NCBI GenBank assembly: GCA_025454925.1
Contig: JALONM010000006.1
Location: forward strand, 62,001-126,000
Direction of reading: 5' to 3'
Length of the DNA: 64,000 bases
Origin: Cytophagaceae bacterium
GTDB taxonomy: Bacteria; Bacteroidota; Bacteroidia; Cytophagales; Cytophagaceae
Shown here: in pieces, positions 26,962-56,882 of the stretch
How positions within the stretch are numbered: the first letter of the stretch is position 1
How the letters are laid out: the number at the start of each line of letters is the position of its first letter
Program-made: the position numbers and the translations under genes
Notes under the pieces: model-generated
Seen by the model: only the letters and a program-made list of their open reading frames with translations
What the model was told of the DNA's origin: nothing
Database searches by the model: none

Positions 26962-27486
26962 TTACTCAAATTGCCCCAGGTACGAATTGCCTTCCCCACA
27001 AAAATCAAGTAGCTCTCCGTTTTTCAGAATTAATTCGCAACCATGTTCAGTTTCCCATTCCGGATAAAACAACATGCGTACAAACCGGTGTTTGCTAGGA
27101 CTGTCTTCTTCTATGGAAACTTGCACCAGATTTGCCTTTGAAAAAGCGTCTTCGGGTGTTTTTATTCCAAAAGTCCGGAGGTTTGCTACTTGTTCAGTTT
27201 CTCCTTCCAGTATGTCAAATCCGTAGGAAATATATTCGCAACATTCCAGGCAGTGTTGGTAGAGAAGGCGCTCCATTAAGTCTCTGCTGCGTTCCGTGAG
27301 ATTCAGGAAATCTTGCACGCTGGCCACCATCTTGTCTGAAATGATGTGCTCAGTGTATTTCAATTGCAACGGAGACGTGTAAAGCATCAGCACAACTTTC
27401 TTGTTGAAAAAAGGTGAGTCTAGCAGAAGTTTACCTTCCGTCCAGATGCTGTTCAATAGAATATCGTTTCTGCTGATGGTGTTCAT
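26962..27486 (-). CDS. Unknown 174-residue cytosolic protein
   Basis: I do not recognise this protein with confidence. It has no signal or TM segment. A Cys-containing middle (YQHCLECCEYISYG) and a C-terminal FYPEWETEHGCELILKNG are the most distinctive parts; the W-E-x-E-H-G motif resembles C-termini of some DUF6985-like or immunity-type proteins, but this is a weak resemblance. It starts 20 bp after the queE stop and is likely the last gene of the response regulator-folD-queE operon. The start at MNTISRND (27486) is chosen over upstream in-frame Mets that lie inside queE. Confidence 0.7.
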   Translation of the reverse strand: MNTISRNDILLNSIWTEGKLLLDSPFFNKKVVLMLYTSPLQLKYTEHIISDKMVASVQDFLNLTERSRDLMERLLYQHCLECCEYISYGFDILEGETEQVANLRTFGIKTPEDAFSKANLVQVSIEEDSPSKHRFVRMLFYPEWETEHGCELILKNGELLDFCGEGNSYLGQFE

Positions 27487-27506
27487 GGAAAGTAAGGGAG
27501 CGCGTA

Positions 27507-28121
27507 CTAAGGGATGTTCATGTATTTGTGCAATTGCAGGGATACTTGCCATTGCGGATGGGCCATGCAATATTCTGTGATTAGCGGAATCATTTCCTCC
27601 CGTTTCGACCATTCCGGTTGCAGGTACAATTGACAAGCCGGCGAAACTTCTTTGGCATACTGTTCTGCGAATTCAAAATCCGATTTGTGGTAAACGATTA
27701 CTTTGAGTTCGTTGGCTGCGCTAATCACAGAAGGGTGGGCGGGTTTGAATTTTTTGGGAGAAAGACAAATCCAGTCCCAGGTGCCAGAAATTGGGTAGGC
27801 TCCTGAGGTTTCGATGTTGGTGCTGAATCCCGCTTCCAGTAGGGCGAGTGTGAGGGGTTGTAAATCGTACATCAGCGGTTCGCCGCCGGTAATTACCGCA
27901 AGCCTGGCCGGAACTTTGTTCGCTGAAGCAACAATATCACTTACCAATACCTGTGGATGGTCGGATGCCTCCCATGATTCTTTTACATCGCACCAGGGGC
28001 AGCCTACATCACAGCCAGCCAGCCGTATGAAATAGGCAGCCTGGCCTTGGTAATACCCTTCTCCCTGAAGCGTATAAAAAGCTTCCATCAGAGGGTAACG
28101 TACATGGTCCTGCATTTCCAT
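27507..28121 (-). CDS. queE: 7-carboxy-7-deazaguanine synthase QueE
   Basis: A 204-residue radical SAM enzyme converting 6-carboxytetrahydropterin to 7-carboxy-7-deazaguanine, an early step to queuosine. FYTLQGEGYYQGQAAYFIRLAGC leads into the cluster motif CDVGCPWCD (CxxxCxxC), then VITGGEPLMYDL and LSPKKFKP, all diagnostic. The start codon overlaps the folD stop by one base (TAATG), so translation is coupled. The late-step enzyme QueG is encoded at 19956-20903; queC, queD, queF and tgt are not in the window. Confidence 0.94.
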   Translation of the reverse strand: MEMQDHVRYPLMEAFYTLQGEGYYQGQAAYFIRLAGCDVGCPWCDVKESWEASDHPQVLVSDIVASANKVPARLAVITGGEPLMYDLQPLTLALLEAGFSTNIETSGAYPISGTWDWICLSPKKFKPAHPSVISAANELKVIVYHKSDFEFAEQYAKEVSPACQLYLQPEWSKREEMIPLITEYCMAHPQWQVSLQLHKYMNIP

Positions 28122-29876: not shown

Positions 29877-31175
29877 ATGGGTATGTATACCAGGGTAAAA
29901 GCAGAGCTTCTGACCATTGGCGATGAGTTGTTGTACGGACAAGTATTGGATACCAATAGCCAATGGATGGGAGTGGAATTGGGCAAGCGGGGCATACAAG
30001 TAGTGCGCAAGACTTCCCTGGGCGATGTGCGCGAAGAGATTCTCCAAGCGTTGCAGGATGCCACACGCAGGGCCGATGTAGTCCTCATCACCGGAGGATT
30101 GGGGCCCACTAAAGACGATATTACCAAAAAAACATTGGCCGAATTTTTTAACTCCGGTTTGGTGTTTCATGCAGAGGCTTACGATGCGCTGGAAAAATTT
30201 TTCAGGAGCAGAGGCAAAGAGGTTTCGGAAACCAATAAGTCGCAGGCAGTATTGCCTTCCAACGCAATATATTTGCCTAATACCTGTGGCACTGCACCCG
30301 GCATGTGGTTTGAGGAAAATGGTGTAGTAGTGGTTTCCATGCCCGGAGTGCCATTTGAAATGAAAGAGCTGATGCTTCGGGAGGTGTTACCCCGCATTCA
30401 AAAGCAAAAGAAATTACCGGTTTTAATTCATAAAATCATTCGTACGGTTGGGGTGGGGGAGTCTGTACTTTCAGATATTCTGGAACCCTGGGAAACGGCT
30501 TTGCCCGATAATATGAAGCTCGCTTATCTCCCATCCATTGGAGAGGTAAAGTTGCGGCTTACCTGTCATGGAGATGATCTGGAGACGCTTCAACAGGATG
30601 CCCGCAGGCAGTTGCAAAACATGCTGACGTTGGTGAAGCCTTATGTATTTGCTTATTCTGAAAAGCCCATGGAGCAAGCGCTTGGCGAATTGCTTGTACA
30701 AAGGGGCGTTACGGTAAGTACCGCCGAAAGCTGCTCTGGTGGCTATCTGGCGCATTTATTCACCTCCGTTGCCGGCAGTAGTCAATATTTTAAAGGCAGC
30801 ATTGTGGCCTATCACAACGATGTCAAGCGTTCCATGCTGCAGGTGCCGGATTCCGACATACAGCAGTATGGCGCAGTAAGCGAAGCAGTGGTAAGGCAAA
30901 TGGCACTTCAGGTAAGACAGCGGTTGAATACCGATATCGGCCTGGCTTCTACGGGCATTGCAGGTCCTGGGGGAGGCACAGAGGAAAAACCGGTGGGCAC
31001 GGTTTGGGTTGCTCTTGCTCACGAGCATGGGGTGGTAAGCCGCAAACTGCAGCTTACCGCTCGCAGGGATCTTAATATTCGATTGACCGCTGTGAACTTA
31101 CTCAATTTGCTGCGCCAGGAATTGAACGTTGAAATTTCTGAAGAGGAATTATGGTCTGGTACAGGATTGGATTAA
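29877..31175 (+). CDS. cinA: CinA-like protein (MoCF domain + nicotinamide-nucleotide amidase)
   Basis: A 432-residue two-domain protein. The N-terminal MoCF/COG1058 domain (about 7-175) has LLTIGDELLYGQVLDTNS and ITGGLGPTKDD and is associated with NAD-related pyrophosphatase activity. The C-terminal amidase domain (about 265-420) has VSTAESCSGGYLA and STGIAGPGGGT and deamidates NMN to NaMN for pyridine salvage. The length and domain order are standard. A TACCTTTA box at 29850-29857 may be a -7 element. It stands alone, divergent from the response regulator. Confidence 0.95.
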   Translation: MGMYTRVKAELLTIGDELLYGQVLDTNSQWMGVELGKRGIQVVRKTSLGDVREEILQALQDATRRADVVLITGGLGPTKDDITKKTLAEFFNSGLVFHAEAYDALEKFFRSRGKEVSETNKSQAVLPSNAIYLPNTCGTAPGMWFEENGVVVVSMPGVPFEMKELMLREVLPRIQKQKKLPVLIHKIIRTVGVGESVLSDILEPWETALPDNMKLAYLPSIGEVKLRLTCHGDDLETLQQDARRQLQNMLTLVKPYVFAYSEKPMEQALGELLVQRGVTVSTAESCSGGYLAHLFTSVAGSSQYFKGSIVAYHNDVKRSMLQVPDSDIQQYGAVSEAVVRQMALQVRQRLNTDIGLASTGIAGPGGGTEEKPVGTVWVALAHEHGVVSRKLQLTARRDLNIRLTAVNLLNLLRQELNVEISEEELWSGTGLD

Positions 31176-31302
31176 CCACTTGGAAAAAACAATACTCGGC
31201 TGTGCAAGGTATAAATCCGCATTGGTGGCTTATTCGGACTTGCCTCGGTTCGGTTGTATGACTATATACTTGCTTTTTACAGGAAAGCAGTCAATTTATA
31301 AG

Positions 31303-31331
31303 TTGAAAATTCTTGATTTTCATTAACTTTG
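31303..31331 (+). promoter_or_regulatory. Candidate promoter of the E2 gene
   Basis: TTG (31303-31305), 18-nt spacer, TAACTTTG (31324-31331), a good Bacteroidota-type promoter, leaving a 24-nt leader before the ATG at 31356. Its position makes it unlikely that coding sequence for the missing lipoyl half lies upstream. Confidence 0.6.
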
Positions 31332-31355
31332 GATGTAAAGTGATTTTATTGCACC

Positions 31356-32618
31356 ATGGCGCTTGTTGAAATGGTGGAAGTGGCCACCGATAAGGTGGAT
31401 ACTGAAATACCAGCAACGCATTCGGGTATTTTAAAACAGATACTGGCTGAAAAGGGACAAGTGGTGAAGGTGGGAGCTGTTATTGCCATCATCGAAACGG
31501 AGGCCGATACATCGGTACAACCCAATGCCAAGCCCATTCAGGAAAAGCCGGTGGAGAAAAAAACTCCGGAAACCCAGCCTCCGGTGGAAGTAAAATCCAA
31601 TCCCGTTTCTACTACTACCGTTTCTAAAAGTGCCAAAGGGAAATTCTTTTCTCCCCTCGTATTAAATATTGCCCGACAGGAAAATATTTCCATGACGGAG
31701 CTTGAGCTTATTCAAGGCACAGGTAAAGACGGCAGAATTACTAAATCGGACATATTGCAATTTATAGAACTGCGTAAGTCCGGAAAGCTCAGTCCTCCTG
31801 AGGTTCAGCAGGAGGTAGTAAAAGATGAAACCAAGGAAATGCCGGCCAAAGATCCGGTGAAAGAAGAGCTGAAAGAGTCGGTAAAGCCTGCCACTTCGCT
31901 GTCTGGCAATGTCGAGATCATTGAGATGGATCGCATGCGCAAAATGATTTCTGAGCGTATGCTCGAGTCTAAGCGCATATCTCCACACGTAACTTCTTTT
32001 GTGGAGGCCGACGTCACCAATATTGTTTATTGGAGAAATCGTATGAAAAACGATTTCATGGAACGCGAAGGTGCCGCCCTTACCCTTACTCCTATCTTTA
32101 TCGAGGCGGTTGCCAGAGCTCTTAAGGATTATCCGATGGTAAATATTTCGGTAGAGGGGGATAAGATAATTCGCAAAAAAGACATCAACATAGGCATGGC
32201 TGTGGCCTTGCCGAGTGGTAACCTCATAGTGCCTGTCATTAAAAACGCCGATCAACTCAATCTGATCGGACTTACCAAACAAGTAAATGAGCTGGCGCGC
32301 AAAGCCAGAAATAATAAATTGACGCCCGACGACCTCGCCAATGGAACATACAGCGTTTCTAACGTTGGTTCTTTTGGTAACTTAATGGGAACACCAATCA
32401 TTATGCAGCCGCAATGCGCCATCCTGGCCTTGGGAGCGGTCATCAAAAAGCCAGCCGTGATTGAAACCGACCAGGGAGATACCATTGGCATACGCCACAT
32501 GATGTTCCTGTCGCATTCTTACGATCATAGGGTGATTGATGGATCTCTCGGAGGGATGTTTGTAAGAAGAGTAGCAGATTACCTTGAAAGTTTTGATTTG
32601 AATCGAAAGGTGTTTTAA
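31356..32618 (+). CDS. 2-oxoacid dehydrogenase acyltransferase (E2) with half a lipoyl domain
   Basis: 420 residues of a dihydrolipoamide acyltransferase. The catalytic domain (about 185-420) is intact with DHRVIDGSLGG (H391, D395), and a peripheral subunit-binding domain lies at about 97-138 (FFSPLVLNIARQ...GKDGRITKSD). The N-terminus reads MALVEMVEVATDKVDTEIP: the lipoyl-Lys (K13) and the second half of the lipoyl domain are there, but the roughly 30 residues (MPKMGES...GD.V...) that family members carry between MALVEMV and EVATDKV are missing in frame. One lipoyl domain is therefore probably unfolded or absent. No E1 gene is adjacent; an E3 gene is at 39361. Branched-chain or 2-oxoglutarate substrate cannot be decided. 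Confidence 0.9.
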   Translation: MALVEMVEVATDKVDTEIPATHSGILKQILAEKGQVVKVGAVIAIIETEADTSVQPNAKPIQEKPVEKKTPETQPPVEVKSNPVSTTTVSKSAKGKFFSPLVLNIARQENISMTELELIQGTGKDGRITKSDILQFIELRKSGKLSPPEVQQEVVKDETKEMPAKDPVKEELKESVKPATSLSGNVEIIEMDRMRKMISERMLESKRISPHVTSFVEADVTNIVYWRNRMKNDFMEREGAALTLTPIFIEAVARALKDYPMVNISVEGDKIIRKKDINIGMAVALPSGNLIVPVIKNADQLNLIGLTKQVNELARKARNNKLTPDDLANGTYSVSNVGSFGNLMGTPIIMQPQCAILALGAVIKKPAVIETDQGDTIGIRHMMFLSHSYDHRVIDGSLGGMFVRRVADYLESFDLNRKVF

Positions 32619-32672
32619 TATAGTTTGCTTCAAAGTAACATTTCACTCGAGAAAATCGTGTTAATAAATTTC

Positions 32673-32708
32673 AAAAAAAGCTCCTGATTCTTGGAGCTTT
32701 TTTATTTT
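32673..32708 (+). terminator. Rho-independent terminator after the E2 gene
   Basis: AAAAAAGCTCC pairs with GGAGCTTTTTT around a loop of about 8 nt, followed by further T residues. It is a textbook intrinsic terminator about 55 bp after the E2 stop. Confidence 0.88.
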
Positions 32709-32850
32709 TGGGAATATACTTGGAATACTCAGTTTTGCAACTGACATTTCTACAAAGTAATGAAGCACAATATGAAGAAAGGTCATAGATCGTAGATTTA
32801 TGGTCGTTTCTTTATGGAATGATTTCAATTGAAAAATTAGAATTGAATAT

Positions 32851-33423
32851 ATGATTAGAAAGGTAGCTATACTGGCACTGCTATGCAGTTTCTTCTCCAT
32901 GCATCAAAAACAAAAAGATTTTCATGTTTTAATTGAACAAGGAGGTGTAATAATCACGCCAAACAATGGAGAAATTAATTTAAAAAAAGGAGAATTTAAT
33001 ATCGTATTTGAGTTGAGTGAACCGATGGGTGTGTTGGTTAATGGGTCATTCCAAGAGACTACCTATGAAAGGGCTGTGAAAGGAAAACCTAAATCCGACC
33101 TTCCAGGTTTTGAAAATACGGGCATGGCTGAAGGGCTTTTGAACCCGGACAAAGAAATTTTTATTTCGAACGACGCTCCCAATTATTGGTTTTACGATGA
33201 CAAAGAAAATAACCGATTTAATTCTGTTGAAGTAGTTAATGAAAAATTAATATGTAAAAGAATAATTCAAAACTTTTACGAGGTCGAAACCAAAAAAAAT
33301 ATAAAAGTAGAAAATGTTAGCAAACCTCTTTATTTGGTTTTTATTTCATACAGGCAGGGGAAATCAATTGTCGACGAAATTGAAACTAAAAGAGAATGGG
33401 TTAAAATAAACTGGATAAAATAA
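32851..33423 (+). CDS. AT-rich orphan, probably exported
   Basis: A 190-residue protein that I do not recognise. The first 17 residues (MIRKVAILALLCSFFSM) look like a signal peptide; the remainder is hydrophilic, Lys/Asn/Glu-rich and probably beta-rich (GEINLKKGEFNIVFELSEPMG). The coding sequence is visibly more AT-rich than its neighbours, which hints at horizontal acquisition. It has its own strand position after a strong terminator and is convergent with the fusion gene at 33445, so it appears to be a single-gene unit. Confidence 0.65.
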   Translation: MIRKVAILALLCSFFSMHQKQKDFHVLIEQGGVIITPNNGEINLKKGEFNIVFELSEPMGVLVNGSFQETTYERAVKGKPKSDLPGFENTGMAEGLLNPDKEIFISNDAPNYWFYDDKENNRFNSVEVVNEKLICKRIIQNFYEVETKKNIKVENVSKPLYLVFISYRQGKSIVDEIETKREWVKINWIK

Positions 33424-39360: not shown

Positions 39361-40752
39361 ATGTCGAAATTTGATATCATCGTGGTGGGAAGTGGCCCAG
39401 GTGGCTACGTAGCCGCCATTAGAGCCTCTCAGCTAGGAAAAAAAGTTGCCATCGTAGAACGTGCAGAATTGGGTGGTATATGTCTGAACTGGGGATGCAT
39501 ACCTACTAAGGCCTTGCTGAAGAGTGCTCAGGTGTTTGAATATATCAAGCATGCCTCCGACTATGGAATTACGGTAAGCGATGCCAAAGCGGATTTCAAT
39601 GCCGTGATTAAGCGCAGCCGCGATGTGGCCAGCGGCATGAGCAAAGGGGTGCAATTTCTGATGAAGAAAAATAAAATCGAGGTTATTGCCGGTTTTGGTA
39701 AGCTGAAAGGCAACAAGCAAGTAGAGGTAACGGACGATAAAGGTGGCAAAGCGGTTTATACTGCCGATCATATCATCCTTGCCACCGGAGGACGTGCCCG
39801 CGAATTGCCAACGCTTAAAATCGATGGACAGAAAATTATCGGATACCGTCAGGCCATGGTGTTGGATAAACGACCTGCTTCTATGGTAATCGTTGGCTCT
39901 GGCGCCATAGGCGTGGAGTTTGCCTATGTGTATAACGCCATGGGTACCAAAGTAACCATCGTGGAGTTTATGCCGAACATTGTTCCGGTAGAAGATGAAG
40001 AAGTATCCAAGCAACTGGAAAAAGAATACAAGAAGGCTGGAATCAATATCATGACGAATGCTTCGGTGGAAAGTGTAGACACCAAAGGGGCAGGTTGCAA
40101 GGTGTTGGTGAAAACCAAAACCGGAACTGAAACCCTGGACTGCGATGTTGTATTGTCGGCTGTAGGTGTTATTGCCAACATCGAAGGCATAGGGCTGGAA
40201 GAAGTAGGGGTAGCTACCGACAAAGGCAAAGTAGTGGTGGATGATTATTACAGAACCAATATCCCTGGTATCTATGCGATCGGCGATATTGTTAAAGGTC
40301 AGGCACTCGCTCACGTGGCTTCCGCGGAAGGGATTATTTGCGTGGAGAAAATTTGTGGCCACCATCCGGAACCATTGGATTATAATAATATTCCTGGTTG
40401 TACGTATTGTTCTCCCGAAATTGCTTCAGTCGGCATGACGGAAAAGGCTTGTCGTGAGAAAGGTATCGATATTAAAGTAGGTAAGTTTCCGTTTTCTGCC
40501 TCCGGCAAAGCCAGTGCGGCAGGAGCCAAAGAAGGCTTTATCAAAGTAATTTTTGATGCCAAATATGGGGAATGGTTAGGTGCTCACATGATTGGCGCTA
40601 ACGTTACCGAAATGATTGCGGAAGTGGTGGTAGCTCGTAAGCTCGAAACTACCGGGCACGAAATAATTAAATCCGTACACCCGCATCCTACCATGTCGGA
40701 AGCCATTATGGAAGCTGCTGCTGCTGCCTACAACGAAGTAATTCACCTCTAA
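39361..40752 (+). CDS. lpdA: Dihydrolipoamide dehydrogenase (E3)
   Basis: A 463-residue FAD disulphide oxidoreductase that reoxidises lipoyl groups of 2-oxoacid dehydrogenase and glycine-cleavage complexes with NAD. The FAD motif GSGPGGYVAAIRA, redox-active disulphide GGICLNWGCIPTK (C4 spacing), NAD motif VIVGSGAIGVEFAYV, second FAD motif IYAIGDI and the C-terminal His-Glu pair in HPHPTMSEAIMEA are all present. Complete and typical. The E2 gene with the damaged lipoyl domain is 7 kb upstream on the same strand. Confidence 0.97.
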   Translation: MSKFDIIVVGSGPGGYVAAIRASQLGKKVAIVERAELGGICLNWGCIPTKALLKSAQVFEYIKHASDYGITVSDAKADFNAVIKRSRDVASGMSKGVQFLMKKNKIEVIAGFGKLKGNKQVEVTDDKGGKAVYTADHIILATGGRARELPTLKIDGQKIIGYRQAMVLDKRPASMVIVGSGAIGVEFAYVYNAMGTKVTIVEFMPNIVPVEDEEVSKQLEKEYKKAGINIMTNASVESVDTKGAGCKVLVKTKTGTETLDCDVVLSAVGVIANIEGIGLEEVGVATDKGKVVVDDYYRTNIPGIYAIGDIVKGQALAHVASAEGIICVEKICGHHPEPLDYNNIPGCTYCSPEIASVGMTEKACREKGIDIKVGKFPFSASGKASAAGAKEGFIKVIFDAKYGEWLGAHMIGANVTEMIAEVVVARKLETTGHEIIKSVHPHPTMSEAIMEAAAAAYNEVIHL

Positions 40753-41336: not shown

Positions 41337-42785
41337 TTACGTCCAGCCACCCCCCAAGGCTTTGTAAAGAAGAATTTTAGATTGCTGAAGTGATTGCAGC
41401 AATTGAATTTCATCGAGCTGAGCCCGCAGCAGATGTTGCTGTGCCGTTAACACTTCCAGGTAATTCGATTTTCCGTTTTTGAAAAGTTGATCGGCTATTT
41501 CCATCGAACGTTCCGCCGTTACTACTTGTTGATTTTTTAATACCAACTGTTGTTGCAGCAGGCTAATGTTTTGTAACAGGTAATGCGTTTCTGAATACGC
41601 TTGCAGCCAGGTATTCTGGTACCGCAACAAAGCTTGCTGGTAGGTGGCATCGGCCATTTTCCGTTGGGCTTTAAGCGCACTTCGGTTTATTAAAGGAGCA
41701 CTTAATCCACCCACCAGTGCGTAAGCTATCGATTGCGGGCTTTTAAACAATAACTTACCAGAGAATGCCTGATAACCGCCGTTGGCGGTCAGCAGGAACG
41801 ATGGACGCAAGGCAGCCTTTGCTGAAGCAAGATCCGAATGGCAGGCTTTTAATTCCCAGGTTGCCATACGGATGTCAGGACGGTTTTCTAATAAGCGGGA
41901 GGGGATGTCCCACGATATATTCAAGGGAATGGGCGGGAGTGGATTCGTTTTCTTGATCGGTTGAGGAATTCTTCCGCAGAGAATGTTCAACGCTTTTTCA
42001 AGTTCATTAATCCTTTTTTGAGTTTCTAGTTTTAACGATTTGAATTCAAGCCATTGTACCTGCGATTGCGTGACTGCGAGTTCAGTGGCTTGGCCGGATG
42101 CTTTCTGAAGAGTGATGATTTCTATTGTTTTTTCCTGAACTTCAATTCCTCGTTCAAGTTTCAGAAGAACGTCCTGCAAAGCCTGGAATTCAAAATACAG
42201 GTAGGCTACTTCCGCTACCAGCGATGACGTAACAAGATTTTTACCTTCGATAGAACTGAAGTATCTGGCCTGCGCACTTTTTTTCTGTTGCGAAAGTTTG
42301 CCCCATACATCTAGTTCCCATGAGGTATTCAATCCCGAGTAGTAATCGGGCAGGTGGATGGGTACAAGTTGGTTCGGTAGGATTTCCGTGGCAATATTTC
42401 CCGCACCATCCATCGTATACAATCCAAATTTTCGTTGCGACAGGTTTACGTTGCCCGATATGCTTGGGAATATGTTACCTCTTGCCATTTTATGAACCGC
42501 CCTGTTGTATTCCACTTTCTGCCATATCTCGCGAAGGGTAAAGTTTTGTTCCAGGGAGGTTTGAATAAGTGCCTGTAACGTTGAATCAGAGATAAGATGG
42601 CTCCATGGTTGCGGCACTATACGAATGGAATCTGAAACACGAAGAGTTGAGTCTGACTCATTAAAACGTTCGGGCAGCTGTACTTTCCATTCTTCCTGTT
42701 GGTGCCCGGTATTTAATTTGCACGCATGAAACAGCAAGGAAACAACAAGACCGAAAGTGAAAAAGTAACCTGATCGCATACACAT
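41337..42785 (-). CDS. RND efflux outer-membrane lipoprotein (TolC/NodT family)
   Basis: A 482-residue outer-membrane factor. An N-terminal lipobox (LLFHAC, Cys at about 22) predicts a lipid-anchored, periplasm-spanning trimeric channel. Two OEP repeats of coiled-coil and beta-strand character are seen: LVAEVAYLYFEFQALQDV with long helices, and ENRPDIRMATWELKACHSDLASAKAALRPSF, a hallmark of the family. It is the last gene of the operon membrane fusion protein-pump-channel and lies 3 bp after the broken pump gene. The channel gene is intact. Confidence 0.92.
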   Translation of the reverse strand: MCMRSGYFFTFGLVVSLLFHACKLNTGHQQEEWKVQLPERFNESDSTLRVSDSIRIVPQPWSHLISDSTLQALIQTSLEQNFTLREIWQKVEYNRAVHKMARGNIFPSISGNVNLSQRKFGLYTMDGAGNIATEILPNQLVPIHLPDYYSGLNTSWELDVWGKLSQQKKSAQARYFSSIEGKNLVTSSLVAEVAYLYFEFQALQDVLLKLERGIEVQEKTIEIITLQKASGQATELAVTQSQVQWLEFKSLKLETQKRINELEKALNILCGRIPQPIKKTNPLPPIPLNISWDIPSRLLENRPDIRMATWELKACHSDLASAKAALRPSFLLTANGGYQAFSGKLLFKSPQSIAYALVGGLSAPLINRSALKAQRKMADATYQQALLRYQNTWLQAYSETHYLLQNISLLQQQLVLKNQQVVTAERSMEIADQLFKNGKSNYLEVLTAQQHLLRAQLDEIQLLQSLQQSKILLYKALGGGWT

Positions 42786-42788
42786 GAA

Positions 42789-45700
42789 TTATCGCTTGGC
42801 TGGAAAAAAATTTCTGGTAATGGCATAAAGGCCAGGAACAAGTACGATTCCAAGCAGTGTGCCGAAAAGCATGCCGCCTGCCGCTGCCGCACCTATTGTC
42901 TGGTTGCCGATGGCACCGGCACCAGTGGCGAATAAAAGAGGAAGTAATCCAACAATAAAAGCGAAGGATGTCATCCGGATAGGACGCAACCGGGCCAAAG
43001 CACCTTGCATAGCAGCTTCGGTTGCCGTGTAGCCTTGTTTTTCTTTTTGAATGGCAAATTCAACAATCAGAATAGCGTTTTTCCCTAATAGCCCAATTAA
43101 CATCACCATGGATATTTGAGCATAGATGTTATTTTCAAGGCCAAACAGAAAGAGCGTAAAGAAAGCTCCAAAGATACCGGCAGGCAATGAAAGCAGGACG
43201 GGTATGGGTAGCGAAAAACTTTCGTACTGCGCCGCTAATAACAAGTATACAAAAACGAGGCACACCAACATAATGTAAATGGCTTGGTTTCCAGTTTGAA
43301 TTTCATCCCTTGTTATACCTGCCCAATCGATGTCAAAACCTGTTGGTAGTTGTGATTCTGCTACTTCCCTGATACATTTTATAGCATCTCCGCTGCTGTA
43401 GCCGGAGGCTGGCTCGCCTGTAATTTCAGCGGAAGGATACGTGTTGTATCGAGTTATTTGATCTACACCATACACACGTTCCAAGGTGACGAAATTGGTT
43501 AAAGGCACCATTTCCCCCAATTCATTCTTAATAGAAAGCGTGAGCAAATCTTCAGGCTTGCTTCGGTATTCTGGTAAAGCCTGAACCATCACTTTGTACA
43601 TTTGTCCGAATCGAATAAAATTAGTGGCATATTCACTGCCTAAAAGAGTTTGAAGGGCACTGGTGATGGTCGCATTGGTGACGTGTTTCTGCGCTGCTTT
43701 ATCAGCATCGATATGAATCAGGTATTGAGGGAAGCTGGCATCAAAAATGGAAAAAGCACTGGCAATTTCAGGTCATTTTTTTAGATCGGCTAAAAACTGT
43801 TGGGTTACTTTCTCCATGTTTTTTAAATCTCCTGTTCCGGTTTGATCCAATAAGCGCAATTCGAAACCGCTGGCATTGCCATATCCAGGAACAGCAGGGG
43901 GTGGGAAATATTCGATGCTTGCATCCCGAATGTGTGCAGTTTTTTCTTCTACTAATTGTATGATTTCGGTAATTGATTCTTTTCGGTTTTGCCAGGGTTT
44001 TAAATTGATTAAACAGGTGCCATAGGTTGCCCCTGTGCAATCGGAAAGTACATTGGTTCCAGCGAGTGTGGCCACCGACTCAATGGCTTCTATTCCATCG
44101 CAAGCACGTTGAATTTCATTTACTACCGATTTCGTTCTTTCCAGCGTAGATCCGGATGGTGTAGTGATGCTCGCATAAAACATTCCCTGATCTTCATTCG
44201 GGATGAATCCGGTTGGAAGGACCTTCGATAATAAGCCGGAGCAAAGGCAGAAAAAAAATAAGGCAATCATGGTAATGAAATTCCGTTGCATCAGCCACTT
44301 GAGCGATCCTAAGTAAGTGTTGGAGAATTGCACATACCGTTCATTGAATCGATGAAAAAATTTTTGAAGAAAATTATGATGAGTGCTATGACTGTCGGTG
44401 TGTTTTAATAAGGAAGCACAAAGAGCAGGCGTAATGGTGAGGGCAACGATACCCGATAATACTATGGCTATGGCCATAGTAAGAGAGAATTGTCTGAAAA
44501 AAATTCCAACGGGTCCTTCCAGGAAAGAAGTAGGAATAAAAACGGCTGACATCACCAAGGTGATGGCTAGAATTGCACCACTGATTTCTCGAATCGCGAG
44601 TTCGGTCGCTTTTTTAGGGGTATTGCCAAGTTCCATTTTGGCATGCACTGCTTCCACCACAACTATGGCATCGTCGATCACAATGCCTATGGCTAGCACG
44701 AGAGCAAACAACGTGATCAGATTTAGAGAAAAACCGAAAAGATAAATAAAGAATAACGTGCCGATCAAAGATACAGGAACTGTTAATGCTGGAATTAACG
44801 TAGATCGAAAATCTTGAAGGAAAATGAATACCACCAGCGATACTAATAAAAATGCTTCCAGGAGTGTTTTAATAACTTCGTGAACAGAGGTATCTAAAAA
44901 GCGCGATACATCATAGCTGATGCTGTAGTCCATGCCTTTCAGGAATTTTTGTTTTCTTCAAGTTTCTCTTTTACACGCTGAATTACCTCGGAGGCATTGG
45001 ATCCTGGTAATTGCTTGAGCATAATGGCAGCGGTTGGTTTGCCATTGAGTTTAGCTTCTACATCAAAAAAAGTAGTGCCGAATTCAACGTCGGCGATTTC
45101 TCCTAACTTCAAAATATTTCCTTGTTCGTCCGTTCGGATGGGGATGTTTCGGTATTGATCTTCGGTATTGTATTTTCCTGTATACTTAATTACGTATTGA
45201 AGGTCTTGAGCCGTTTTGTCCGAACTTTCCCCTACTTTTCCCGGCGCAGCCTCTACATTTTGTGCTTGAAGAGCTTCTACAATTTCCTGAGGGGATAACT
45301 GATAGGAGGTAAGTTTGTCGGGTTTCAGCCATATACGCATGGCATATTCTTTAGCGCCCAGGATGTCGGCGTATCCTACTCCTTTTATTCTTTTTAAATC
45401 AAGCAGTACGTGTATGTCGGTAAAGTTGTAAAGGAATTTTTCTTCTAAAGAACTGTCGTTACTGAAGATGTTTACATACATCAGCATACTATTTTCTTCT
45501 TTAGCTATCTTGACTCCATTTTTAATAATTTCTGCAGGAAGTTCGCCCATGACGGCTGATACTCTGTTTTGCACGTTGACCGCGGCTACATCAGGATCGG
45601 TGCCTGCTTCAAAGATAATTTGAACAACACCGACTCCGTCGTTTCCTGCATCAGAAGACATGTATTTCATGCCGGGAACTCCATTGATTGCCCTTTCCAA

Positions 45701-45892
45701 AGGGACAATGCCGGCTTTGGTTACTGTTTCTGCATTGGCTCCTGTGTATTCAATGGTCACATTTACTTCCGGTGGCGCGATGGAAGGGAATTGAGACATG
45801 GGTAATTTACTCAATGCCAGCAGCCCAAGAAAGCAAAGAAGAAGCGATATTACGACAGATAATACCGGCCTTTTAATAAAGCGTAAGAACAT
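42789..45892 (-). pseudogene. RND efflux permease (AcrB/HAE1 type) with two lesions
   Basis: A normal-length pump gene (about 1035 codons) split into three open segments. Segment 1 (45892-44939, 317 codons) starts MFLRFIKRPVLSVVIS and ends EKLEENKNS at a frameshift: restoring one A in the A5 run near 44946-44951 gives ENKKFLKGMDYS and rejoins segment 2 (start at 44933). Segment 2 ends in an in-frame TGA (43775-43773) inside DLKK-stop-PEIASAFSIFD; the frame stays open beyond it through segment 3 to 42789. AcrB landmarks are otherwise present: NLITLFALVLAIGIVIDDAI, TSFLEGPVG, NEDQGMFYA and GLLGKNAILIVEFA. Two independent lesions in one gene favour decay over a single sequencing error. Confidence 0.9.
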
Positions 45893-45928: not shown

Positions 45929-47026
45929 TTACTGTTGCAAACTAATAAGCTGGGGCTTTATTTCTTCGCCTTCCCGGATGGATTGTATGCCTTCAAAAAT
46001 GATTCTGTCCTGTTCAGAAATTCCTGATTCCACCACATAGTACTGTGCCAGACGCAGTCTTGGAATAAAACTTTTTCGAATGACACGGTTGGAAGAGTCA
46101 AGCAAATAGACATACGTTTTATCCTGAATTTCAAAGGTTGATTTTTGAGGAATGAGACATGCTTTTTTTAATCGGTGTGAAATTCTGATTTTACCTGCGG
46201 AGCCGTTTTTTAGAATTTCACCGGCGTTATTGAATCGAGCTCTATAGGAAACTGTACCAGATTTTTTATCGATGTCGGCGATTACTGTTTCGATTTTTCC
46301 GGCAACAGGATATTTTTTTTGATTGGCCATAATCAACTCTACCTGATGCGCTTGATGCAAGGGTTCTTGTTGAGAAAAATTCAACGCTTCTTTTTCAGAA
46401 ATTTTAAAGTATGCAAAAATTTCTAAATTGTCGGATAAGGTAGTGAGTAAAGCCCTTTCCTCTATTAAGCTTCCTTTTTTGTATTGAATCCGATTGATCC
46501 TTCCAGCGAAGGGCGCTTTAATAGCGCACATGGAAATGCGGAGTTTGATGTTGGAAAGTTCTGCCCGCACTTCCAGAATCTGAGCTTTAGCTGCCTCCAA
46601 TTTGGCTTTTGCCATTTCCAGTTCTGATTCGGAAATGATATTTTTTTCTACCAAACGAAGGGTGTTGTCAAGGCTTACTTGTTCCATTTTTTCAGCTGCC
46701 AAGGCATTGGCAAGCTGGGCTTCGGCTTTCGCTAATTCTTGCTGAAAGTGCGGGTTGATTAATTGAAATAAAACTTGTCCTTCTTTTACATAGCTGCCTT
46801 CGTCGGCTAAAATGCGATCCATGTATCCATGCACATGACTTCGTATTTCAATGTTTTGTCTGGATTCTATGTCTGCGACATATTCTGTAAAATAGGTGGT
46901 ATCTTTTATTGTGGGATTAATTATTGGGTATTCTGAATGCAAGGATTCAGATGGGGTTTGCTTGCAGCTCCATAGAATGCAAAGCAATAGCATGTAACAT
47001 GCTAGTTTTCTCAGAAGCATATACAA
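45929..47026 (-). CDS. RND efflux membrane fusion protein (HlyD/AcrA family)
   Basis: A 365-residue periplasmic adaptor. The lipobox LLLCILWSC (Cys at about 21) is followed by a lipoyl-like half motif (IRSHVHGYMDRILADEGSYVKEGQVLFQL), an alpha-helical hairpin (about 95-165), the second lipoyl half (IKAPFAGRINRIQYKKGSLI) and beta-barrel/MP domains. It would connect the pump to the outer-membrane channel. It lies 36 bp upstream of the pump pseudogene in the same operon and is itself intact, so it may now be orphaned or serve another pump. Confidence 0.92.
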   Translation of the reverse strand: MYMLLRKLACYMLLLCILWSCKQTPSESLHSEYPIINPTIKDTTYFTEYVADIESRQNIEIRSHVHGYMDRILADEGSYVKEGQVLFQLINPHFQQELAKAEAQLANALAAEKMEQVSLDNTLRLVEKNIISESELEMAKAKLEAAKAQILEVRAELSNIKLRISMCAIKAPFAGRINRIQYKKGSLIEERALLTTLSDNLEIFAYFKISEKEALNFSQQEPLHQAHQVELIMANQKKYPVAGKIETVIADIDKKSGTVSYRARFNNAGEILKNGSAGKIRISHRLKKACLIPQKSTFEIQDKTYVYLLDSSNRVIRKSFIPRLRLAQYYVVESGISEQDRIIFEGIQSIREGEEIKPQLISLQQ

Positions 47027-54356: not shown

Positions 54357-55520
54357 TTACAGGCTTTCTTCGAAGGCTTGCAGCAGTTCCTCTTGCTGCA
54401 GCGAGTAAGGATTGTTTTTGTTTTCGGTTGCAGAAATAATTCGAGGAGCGTCTTCTTTTTTCACCCCATACTCGGAAAGCCTTGGGATGCTGAATTCTTC
54501 CGTATAAGTATGTATTATATCAAGCAACCCATCGGTGTAATATTTATCGCTCTTGTTTTCTTTGCGCAAAAAGAGTTTTCCTGCATATGAAAATTTCTTC
54601 AAACTCCGTGTATCCTTTTTTGCTCTCAGGCGAGAGATGGCAATGGTATTGCAGGAGTGCATCATACGGGCACAAATGATGCCATGTGGAATGGAATACA
54701 ATCCTCCGATGGAAGAGGCAAATCCATGAATGGTTCCCAAGCCGGCATTGGCCAGGCAAATTCCTGACAGCAAGGCTGCATGTGCCATGTGTGCGCGAGC
54801 CGACAAGGAGTCGTGCATTACGGCATGTTTTAATCCCAGGTGAATGCTGAACAAACCACGCTCGGCAAGAGCGTCCGTAAAGGTATTCGCTTGATTGGAA
54901 GTATACGATTCTAAAAGTTGCGTAAAGGCATCCATGCCGCTATAAGCAGTTACCATGGCTGGACATCCCATGTGTAATTCAGGATCTACCAAGGCAATTT
55001 CAGGAACAAAATTGGTATGTCGTAATGATTTTTTAAATCCGTTTTCACCTATGATTGAAAGCACGGCATTTTTGGTGGCCTCGCTGCCGGTGCCTGCCGT
55101 AGTAGGGATAGCGATCATGGGTACTTTTAATCCGGGATGCTGTTGAGTTCCTATCCCTTCCAAATAATCTTGCACCGGCACCTGCAATGGCAACATGGCG
55201 GAGATCGCCTTGCCTGCATCCAAAACGCTGCCGCCGCCAATAGCAAGAATCAGGTCTATCTTTTCAGGATCGTACTGGTTTACAATTGCATCAATATCTG
55301 CCGGACTAGGTTCTTTGGCAATGGATGCTTCTCCTGCAAAGGAGCAATAATGCTGTAATTCTTTATAAAACGTTCCGGCACGAAAGGAATGATGGCCAGT
55401 AACTAGAAGTACATTTTTCCCGAAGCGCGATAGCAATTGCGGAAGTTTGGAGAAATGGCCTGCTCCGAAATGTATTTCTGGACAGGAAGCAAAAACAAAA
55501 GGTTGTAAAAGTAAGCTCAT
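54357..55520 (-). CDS. Iron-containing alcohol dehydrogenase
   Basis: A 387-residue Fe-ADH. The NAD(P)-binding half has LLVTGHHSF and LILAIGGGSVLDAGKAI; the metal-binding half has GMDAFTQLLES and the His-rich GLGTIHGFASSIGGLYSIPHGIICA, which holds the conserved metal-binding histidines. It oxidises or reduces primary alcohols/aldehydes; the physiological substrate is unknown. Its start overlaps the upstream monooxygenase-fold gene by 4 bp (ATGA), so it is the last gene of a three-gene operon with a LuxC-like reductase. Confidence 0.92.
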   Translation of the reverse strand: MSLLLQPFVFASCPEIHFGAGHFSKLPQLLSRFGKNVLLVTGHHSFRAGTFYKELQHYCSFAGEASIAKEPSPADIDAIVNQYDPEKIDLILAIGGGSVLDAGKAISAMLPLQVPVQDYLEGIGTQQHPGLKVPMIAIPTTAGTGSEATKNAVLSIIGENGFKKSLRHTNFVPEIALVDPELHMGCPAMVTAYSGMDAFTQLLESYTSNQANTFTDALAERGLFSIHLGLKHAVMHDSLSARAHMAHAALLSGICLANAGLGTIHGFASSIGGLYSIPHGIICARMMHSCNTIAISRLRAKKDTRSLKKFSYAGKLFLRKENKSDKYYTDGLLDIIHTYTEEFSIPRLSEYGVKKEDAPRIISATENKNNPYSLQQEELLQAFEESL

Positions 55521-55816
55521 CTCGATTCGGGAAAAAGTAATTGTAATGGTTTTCCTTCTCTGGGATTAGCCATCATGGGAGCCACTTGCTCCCGCCATTG
55601 GAGGTAATGTGTCGTTTGTTTATGTGCGGAGGCCTGGTCGGCATGCTCGTATACCTCGTACAACATAAAGTGGCATGGATTTTCCGGATTACGAAGCACA
55701 TCAAACCGGAAATTGCCAAACTCCTGAACCGAGGCTTGATGATTTGTACGTGTGGCTTCGATGAACGCGTCCACAAATTCCGGTTTTACCCAAACATGCA
55801 CCCAGGTGGCATTCAT
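55517..55816 (-). CDS. ABM-fold (YgiN/LsrG-like) protein
   Basis: About 99 residues of the antibiotic biosynthesis monooxygenase superfamily, a small dimeric ferredoxin-like fold. VHVWVKPEFVDAFIEATRTNH, FDVLRNPENPCHFMLYEVYEHADQASAHKQTTHYLQW match the core pattern of YgiN and LsrG (autoinducer-2 degradation). Placed between the LuxC-like and Fe-ADH genes with an 11-bp gap and a 4-bp overlap. I start at MNATWVHV (55816) because the longer frame overlaps the upstream gene. Reaction unknown. Confidence 0.87.
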   Translation of the reverse strand: MNATWVHVWVKPEFVDAFIEATRTNHQASVQEFGNFRFDVLRNPENPCHFMLYEVYEHADQASAHKQTTHYLQWREQVAPMMANPREGKPLQLLFPESR

Positions 55817-55827
55817 ATCGTTAAGGA

Positions 55828-56844
55828 TTAAAGGGAAGATAAAAATTTCATCGTATCTATTCCATCGGCATATTCCCATACGTGCGGCGATTGGGCTTTG
55901 CCAAATGGTGTAGCTCCAGGCCAGAAAGTGCCGGAAGCCACGATGCATTGTAATTTTTGCTGCTGCGTTTGCAAATAATCCTGCAAGGCTTGCACATCGG
56001 AATAACGCTCCACATAAATAACGGCAATCGGGGAGACCAGATCAGTCGTTTCTGTCAGGATCACAAATCCATTATCGAGATGCTGAATGTTTTTGAGCAG
56101 GTAAATAGCCCGGTTGTATTCGTAATTGTTGTTGAATTTGTGGTGGTCTATGATTGGCCTCCAGGTTTCTATTTGTCGAAAGAAAATGCTGAGATCGTAC
56201 TCCTGAGGTATGAAAATTTTAGAGACGTTGCGGCAGCCCAATCCAAAGTATCGGAATAGGTCACTCCCCAGGGCATGAAGTTCGTCTTCTGATTCTTCAC
56301 CGCTTAGAATGGCTACACTAACTCTGTTTTTGCGGATGATGCGTGGTTTATTGGCAAAATAATATTCAAAATGCTTGGCTGTATTATCACTTCCAGTGGC
56401 GATTACGGCATCGGCCGCATTAATTTTATCGACCAGGCTCACCTTGGTGGCAAGCGAGGGTTCCAACGAAAAGAGTTTCTGGAAAATGAACAACATCAAC
56501 ACCTGGTCATCAGAACTTAGTTTTGCCATCAGGTGGTGCCCAGAGGCTAGCACACAGAGCGCATCATGAAATCCGACCAGAGGAATATTACCCGCCATGA
56601 CCACACCGATTTTTTGGGGAGTGCTAACTGGTAATTCAGGATATTGCTGCATCCAGTGCGACAAGTCCTGGTGCCTGAGCATAAGCGCAGTTTGCTCAAG
56701 TGCAAAGCGCACATTGGTTTCCTCGAACCAACGATTTTGAACATATACCTGTTGGCAGAGTTGTTTAATTTCTGCCTCTGGTAGATTCGTTATCTCTTCA
56801 CCAAGGCGCGAAAATACCTCCCATACTGTTGAACCAATTGCCAT
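55828..56844 (-). CDS. LuxC-like acyl-CoA reductase
   Basis: About 338 residues related to the acyl-CoA/acyl-protein reductase LuxC, with an aldehyde dehydrogenase-like fold. IGVVMAGNIPLVGFHDALCVL, VIATGSDNTAKHFEYYF and the strongly conserved DLFRYFGLGCRNVSKIF, which holds the likely catalytic Cys. It would reduce an acyl thioester to an aldehyde, a fitting substrate for the Fe-ADH encoded downstream. A -7-like box (TATTTTTG on the minus strand, 56875-56882) excludes the longer TTG start and supports the ATG at 56844. Divergent from ferredoxin, a common Bacteroidota arrangement. Confidence 0.87.
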   Translation of the reverse strand: MAIGSTVWEVFSRLGEEITNLPEAEIKQLCQQVYVQNRWFEETNVRFALEQTALMLRHQDLSHWMQQYPELPVSTPQKIGVVMAGNIPLVGFHDALCVLASGHHLMAKLSSDDQVLMLFIFQKLFSLEPSLATKVSLVDKINAADAVIATGSDNTAKHFEYYFANKPRIIRKNRVSVAILSGEESEDELHALGSDLFRYFGLGCRNVSKIFIPQEYDLSIFFRQIETWRPIIDHHKFNNNYEYNRAIYLLKNIQHLDNGFVILTETTDLVSPIAVIYVERYSDVQALQDYLQTQQQKLQCIVASGTFWPGATPFGKAQSPHVWEYADGIDTMKFLSSL

Positions 56845-56874
56845 TTTTTTTGTTTTGGGATCTGTACTGAAAGG

Positions 56875-56882
56875 CAAAAATA
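56875..56882 (-). promoter_or_regulatory. -7 box of the LuxC-like operon
   Basis: TATTTTTG on the minus strand, 30 nt before the chosen ATG. A -33 box is not obvious. Confidence 0.5.

Follow-up and report, generated by a model that had tools for sequence, protein, structure and literature searches.

Recent pseudogenes and inactivating in-frame deletions occur in bacterial genomes. The lipoyl domain is built of eight strands with quasi two-fold symmetry, and a pyruvate-type E1 contacts both the turn that carries the lipoyl lysine and the loop joining strands 1 and 2, as described in the available part of PMC6270654. In OdhA, E1o and E2o activities are combined in one chain and a lipoyl donor acting in trans is known (available parts of PMC10415282 and PMC7568260). 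Here, we describe an E2 gene in a window of 64,000 nucleotides (the whole stretch of DNA that was analysed) from a Cytophagaceae bacterium, whose only lipoyl domain is truncated by an in-frame gap of 93 nt. The features of this locus are as follows.

31303..31331, + strand: likely Bacteroidota-type promoter, composed of TTG (31303-31305), 18 nt and TAACTTTG (31324-31331), the box ending 24 nt before the ATG
31356-32618, + strand: E2 acyltransferase gene of a 2-oxo acid dehydrogenase complex with a truncated lipoyl domain, 420-aa ORF
31371..31493, + strand: lipoyl-domain remnant, covering only profile positions 33-73 of 73 of Pfam Biotin_lipoyl (PF00364)
31376..31377 (between the two), + strand: deletion junction at which 93 nt (31 codons) of relatives are absent, placed by comparison with the relatives' loci
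31392..31394, + strand: codon of Lys13 in ATDKVD, where lipoylation would be expected, an invariant alignment column
31644..31757, + strand: complete E1/E3-binding domain (PSBD), Pfam E3_binding PF02817, profile 2-36 of 36
31911..32594, + strand: essentially complete acyltransferase catalytic domain with a SYDHRVIDG motif, PF00198, profile 4-227 of 232, E 4.5e-76
32674-32703, + strand: 11-pair hairpin followed by a T-rich tail, a likely intrinsic terminator found by a terminator scan directly 3' of the E2 gene
39361..40752, + strand: dihydrolipoyl dehydrogenase-like (E3) gene, 463 aa, with a CLNWGC redox motif and intact domains, 6.7 kb downstream of the E2 gene

The 31356-32618 protein has a peripheral subunit-binding domain and a catalytic domain (2-oxoacid_dh) with the HxxxDG motif, here DHRVIDG, both as expected of an E2 component; the at least one complete lipoyl domain that an E2 component should also have is lacking. 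Its N-terminus reads MALVEMVEVATDKVDTEIP, in which MALVEMV runs directly into EVATDKVD. The protein is 70% identical to its orthologue L039, from the MAG Cytophagaceae bacterium SKYG76. Because of the likely terminator at 32674-32703, one of 7 terminator-like sites found in 31100-32900 as against 1.5 in shuffled sequences, the gene looks monocistronic.

The truncation became evident from comparison with related loci. In all 110 relative loci, a MPKMGES-type motif starts at residue 8 and an EVATDKVD-type motif follows exactly 31 residues on; the segment missing from the window E2 comprises the 31 residues between V7 and E8. The 110 loci consist of 80 obtained in a relatives search, which may leave out records very near the window, and 30 from genomes of the family and order (L010-L038 and L132), and they represent 106 distinct proteins and 4 repeats. 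The preliminary description of this DNA had reported a truncated lipoyl domain with both flanks kept, and the truncation is indeed real in the assembly. Its estimate of about 30 residues, or 90-100 bases, gave the right range and is now corrected to exactly 31 residues and 93 nt, while its statement that the first half of the domain is lost holds only approximately, since residues 8-38 are gone and strand 1 (MALVEMV) is kept. It was right that Lys13 is retained, the codon at 31392-31394 being present in ATDKVD. Relatives with the same short N-terminus, which it had named as an observation that would speak against its reading, were absent among the relatives opened.

Searches of the family and the order gave the same picture. 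Nineteen genomes of the family were examined, including that of the window, and an orthologue with the segment was found in 17 of the 18 others; in one of these 17 the orthologue is split between contigs, and its N-terminal part, L132, carries the segment. No orthologue was matched in the remaining genome, whose completeness is 69%. Across the order, 390 genomes were queried with the first 60 residues, and 380 of them had a match. Among the matches listed, the window's own gene alone aligned from query residue 1 and the others aligned from residue 6. The 31-residue spacing was present in all 29 of the loci opened from this search, 10 of which encode proteins already counted above. No second genome of the same genus was present in the genomes covered by the searches.

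A misplaced start codon was considered as the cause of the gap and rejected: an in-frame TGA five codons upstream of the ATG leaves room for no more than four sense codons, and the 187 bases at 31176-31362, which reach from the upstream gene's end to shortly after the ATG, yielded no MPKMGES-like stretch in any of the six frames. The spacing in relatives, the upstream TGA and the absence of the segment upstream all agree with the earlier view that this is an internal in-frame deletion and not a wrong start. A move of the segment to another place in the window was likewise rejected, as tblastn with the L039 segment gave chance matches alone (best E 0.5). The -7 consensus of Bacteroidota promoters is TAnnTTTG. 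This pattern stands at -32 of the window E2 gene; 39 of 80 relatives also have it no more than 80 nt from their start, compared with 2.8% of base-shuffled upstream sequences, in line with the promoter previously proposed for this position. A promoter scan detected no E. coli-type sigma-70 site upstream of the E2 gene on the + strand, which accords with a promoter of the Bacteroidota type. Across the genome, ten matches to the lipoyl family were obtained: the window E2 itself, four full domains (two each in the E2s of contigs C58 and C121) and five others, namely two full domains in short ORFs (160 and 169 aa) and three partial ones in frames of 371-391 aa. Three E2-like matches were found, consisting of the window E2 and the two more distant proteins on C58 and C121, and no second copy of the window E2 gene was seen in the genome search.

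Structure predictions were compared for the full-length L039 and the window E2, using the same 46-sequence alignment in AlphaFold. In L039, the whole lipoyl domain was modelled with pLDDT values of 84-92, and strands at 36-41 and 46-50 flank the lipoyl lysine in a clear hairpin. In the window E2, residues 1-20 scored about 41-43 with no strands beside Lys13 and residues 21-50 scored 67-69; the E3-binding and catalytic regions were mostly well modelled in both proteins. According to strand positions in the L039 model, the lost residues 8-38 (full-protein numbering) span strand 2, strand 3 and half of strand 4, from its start, and strand 1 now abuts strand 4. The remnant is thus predicted not to fold, given the absence of a confident fold in the model, as had been anticipated for the half-domain. 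The loop between strands 1 and 2, which E1 contacts in the pyruvate-type complex according to the available part of PMC6270654, is among the deleted parts. Since there would be no folded lipoyl domain, Lys13 is probably not, or only poorly, lipoylated, and E1 would have no swinging arm to load. We infer that the window E2 cannot work by itself.

Conservation in the rest of the protein bears on the age of the deletion. When positions conserved in at least 90% of relatives were considered, none of the 19 such positions in the lipoyl remnant was changed, intact relatives averaging 0.5 changes and having at most 3. In the E3-binding domain, 2 of 16 conserved positions were changed, a number reached by 3 of 105 relatives; both changes are conservative (F for Y and I for V) and are not read as decay. 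In the catalytic domain, 5 of 127 conserved positions were changed, an extent equalled or exceeded by 21 of 105 relatives. An old deletion accompanied by decay was rejected because the conservation of the remnant is intact. The absence of decay there, in a part of the protein where drift would be expected, indicates that the deletion is recent, or is not real, or that the remnant is under selection.

The genome encodes the partners that an E2 of this kind requires. A fused E1 of 659 aa is encoded on contig C128, separately from the E2, in an open and complete frame, and we propose that it pairs with the window E2. GcvH, of which there is one, and the two other E2s, each bearing two full lipoyl domains, likewise have open frames and full domains. 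With E1, GcvH and the E3-like gene all present, the complex is not visibly being lost gene by gene. The size of the protein and the fused E1 may point to a branched-chain substrate. PDB matches include the 2-oxoisovalerate dehydrogenase E2 (3mae), the best match being a PDH E2. No NCBIfam equivalog reached its cut-off for the window E2 or L039, so the substrate is not proven.

Several other loci were noted along the way. On the minus strand, at 26962-27636 and 27507-28121, the DUF6985 ORF as listed begins at a TTG inside the upstream radical-SAM gene, and its true start probably lies further downstream. An RND (ACR_tran) transporter gene at 42789-45892 (- strand) carries one in-frame stop and, at an A-run, a frame shift, which split it over three ORFs; its neighbours are the genes of an outer membrane efflux protein (41337-42785) and, on the other side, a membrane fusion protein (45929-47026), and it is either a pseudogene or affected by base errors. 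A split acyl-CoA reductase was considered at 55517-56877 and rejected, as the region reads as two separate genes. Just beyond the window's right end, at 126640-127729 of contig C5, adjacent frames of 330 and 287 aa match Transket_pyr and, weakly, E1_dh; we take them to be probably a split transketolase.

The preliminary description had named three outcomes, namely an inactive complex, a different lipoyl protein serving as donor, and a local collapse of the assembly, and each is weighed here. We favour, as the probable explanation, a recent 93-base in-frame deletion that caused loss of function in a known enzyme and was caught before further decay. On this reading the gene's product forms the core (E2) of a 2-oxo acid dehydrogenase complex, probably one for branched-chain substrates in which the fused E1 of C128 takes part, and its sole lipoyl domain has lost strands 2 and 3 and the beginning of strand 4. 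The unfolded remnant would leave the lysine not, or poorly, lipoylated, and E1 would find no swinging arm. The short E2 may still form the core and bind E1 or E3, but would not complete the reaction by itself. Two observations temper this loss-of-function reading, namely that the deletion is in frame, which happens by chance in 1 of 3 cases, and that the 19 conserved positions are unchanged; both would also fit an E2 that still functions, or an artefact of assembly. The artefact, whereby the 93 bases of a full-length gene dropped out during assembly or gap closing or through chimaeric reads, is rather unlikely in our judgement, though it deserves serious attention. In its favour, the sequence comes from one draft assembly in 135 contigs, decay is wholly absent from the remnant, the partners E1 and E3 are intact, and, of the two RND lesions nearby, the one at an A-run could be a sequencing error. 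Against this, the reading frame is kept, and the ends of the segment share no repeat longer than 3 nt in the 80 relatives (no match in 40 of them, 1 nt in 10, 2 nt in 27, and the full 3 nt in the other 3), leaving repeat collapse without a substrate. Short-read repeat collapse is unlikely because of these short matches, and a repeat-driven assembly collapse is disfavoured as judged from the relatives' segments, which here take the place of the lost sequence of this species itself. The broken RND gene, about 11 kb from the E2 gene, indicates that lesions occur in this genome or in its assembly, and it cuts both ways for the E2 deletion. A weak control also speaks against general assembly error: 31 window proteins were scanned with Pfam, 5 had no match, and besides the E2 and the split RND none of the matched proteins was taken as missing a chunk of a conserved domain. 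In this control, partial matches (LuxC, 51-241 of 401; photolyase FAD_binding_7, 1-153 of 203; and a few weak ones) were tentatively put down to divergence, and the match tables do not show internal gaps.

Two further explanations would have the short protein still at work. By analogy with actinobacterial OdhA, the short E2 could be functional and receive a lipoyl arm in trans from the PDH or OGDH E2 or from GcvH. The intact core and binding domains are consistent with this, as are the two other E2s and the one GcvH in the genome, and OdhA provides a precedent (available part of PMC7568260). Nevertheless, we consider it very unlikely, since no relative opened shares the short N-terminus, the window E2 is not fused to an E1 as OdhA is, and a kept half-domain with every conserved residue unchanged would have no role. 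The specific case of an independent and very young trans supply outside Actinobacteria, in which the E2 borrows the lipoyl domains of the pyruvate or 2-oxoglutarate complex, appears slightly more improbable still, and trans supply to the window E2 is in general possible but unsupported. Alternatively, the remnant might be a working minimal lipoyl domain, for example through two half-domains pairing across neighbouring subunits. Lys13 and all 19 conserved remnant positions are unchanged, and the quasi two-fold symmetry of the lipoyl fold (available part of PMC6270654) could accommodate such an arrangement, yet the monomer prediction shows no confident fold in the remnant and the loop that contacts E1 in the pyruvate-type complex, according to the same part of PMC6270654, is deleted; we give this explanation hardly any credence. 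Taking all readings together, the deletion is probably real in the organism.

If so, nature would have knocked out the swinging arm of an E2 that is intact in other respects, and the gene could help to show what an armless core still does and whether complexes share lipoyl domains. If it is an error, annotation by the catalytic domain alone would call the gene intact. A literature search, covering titles and the openings of abstracts with few subscription papers, returned no E2 described as having this half-domain deletion. Like OdhA/KGD, an E1o-E2o fusion that uses a lipoyl-lysine in trans, the window E2 has an acyltransferase domain yet carries no complete lipoyl domain itself. Unlike OdhA/KGD, it is unfused, the 659-aa E1 being encoded separately on another contig, and it stands alone among the relatives opened and keeps a half-domain. 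With the L039-type E2s of Bacteroidota it shares the N-terminal heptad pattern, the E3-binding domain, the catalytic domain and the lipoyl lysine, and it differs from them in the loss, between V7 and E8, of 31 residues present in every relative opened. Ordinary recent pseudogenes and inactivating in-frame deletions likewise show a clean small deletion in a conserved gene with no further decay. From these the window E2 differs in nothing essential; its reading frame is kept, so that the protein can still be made.
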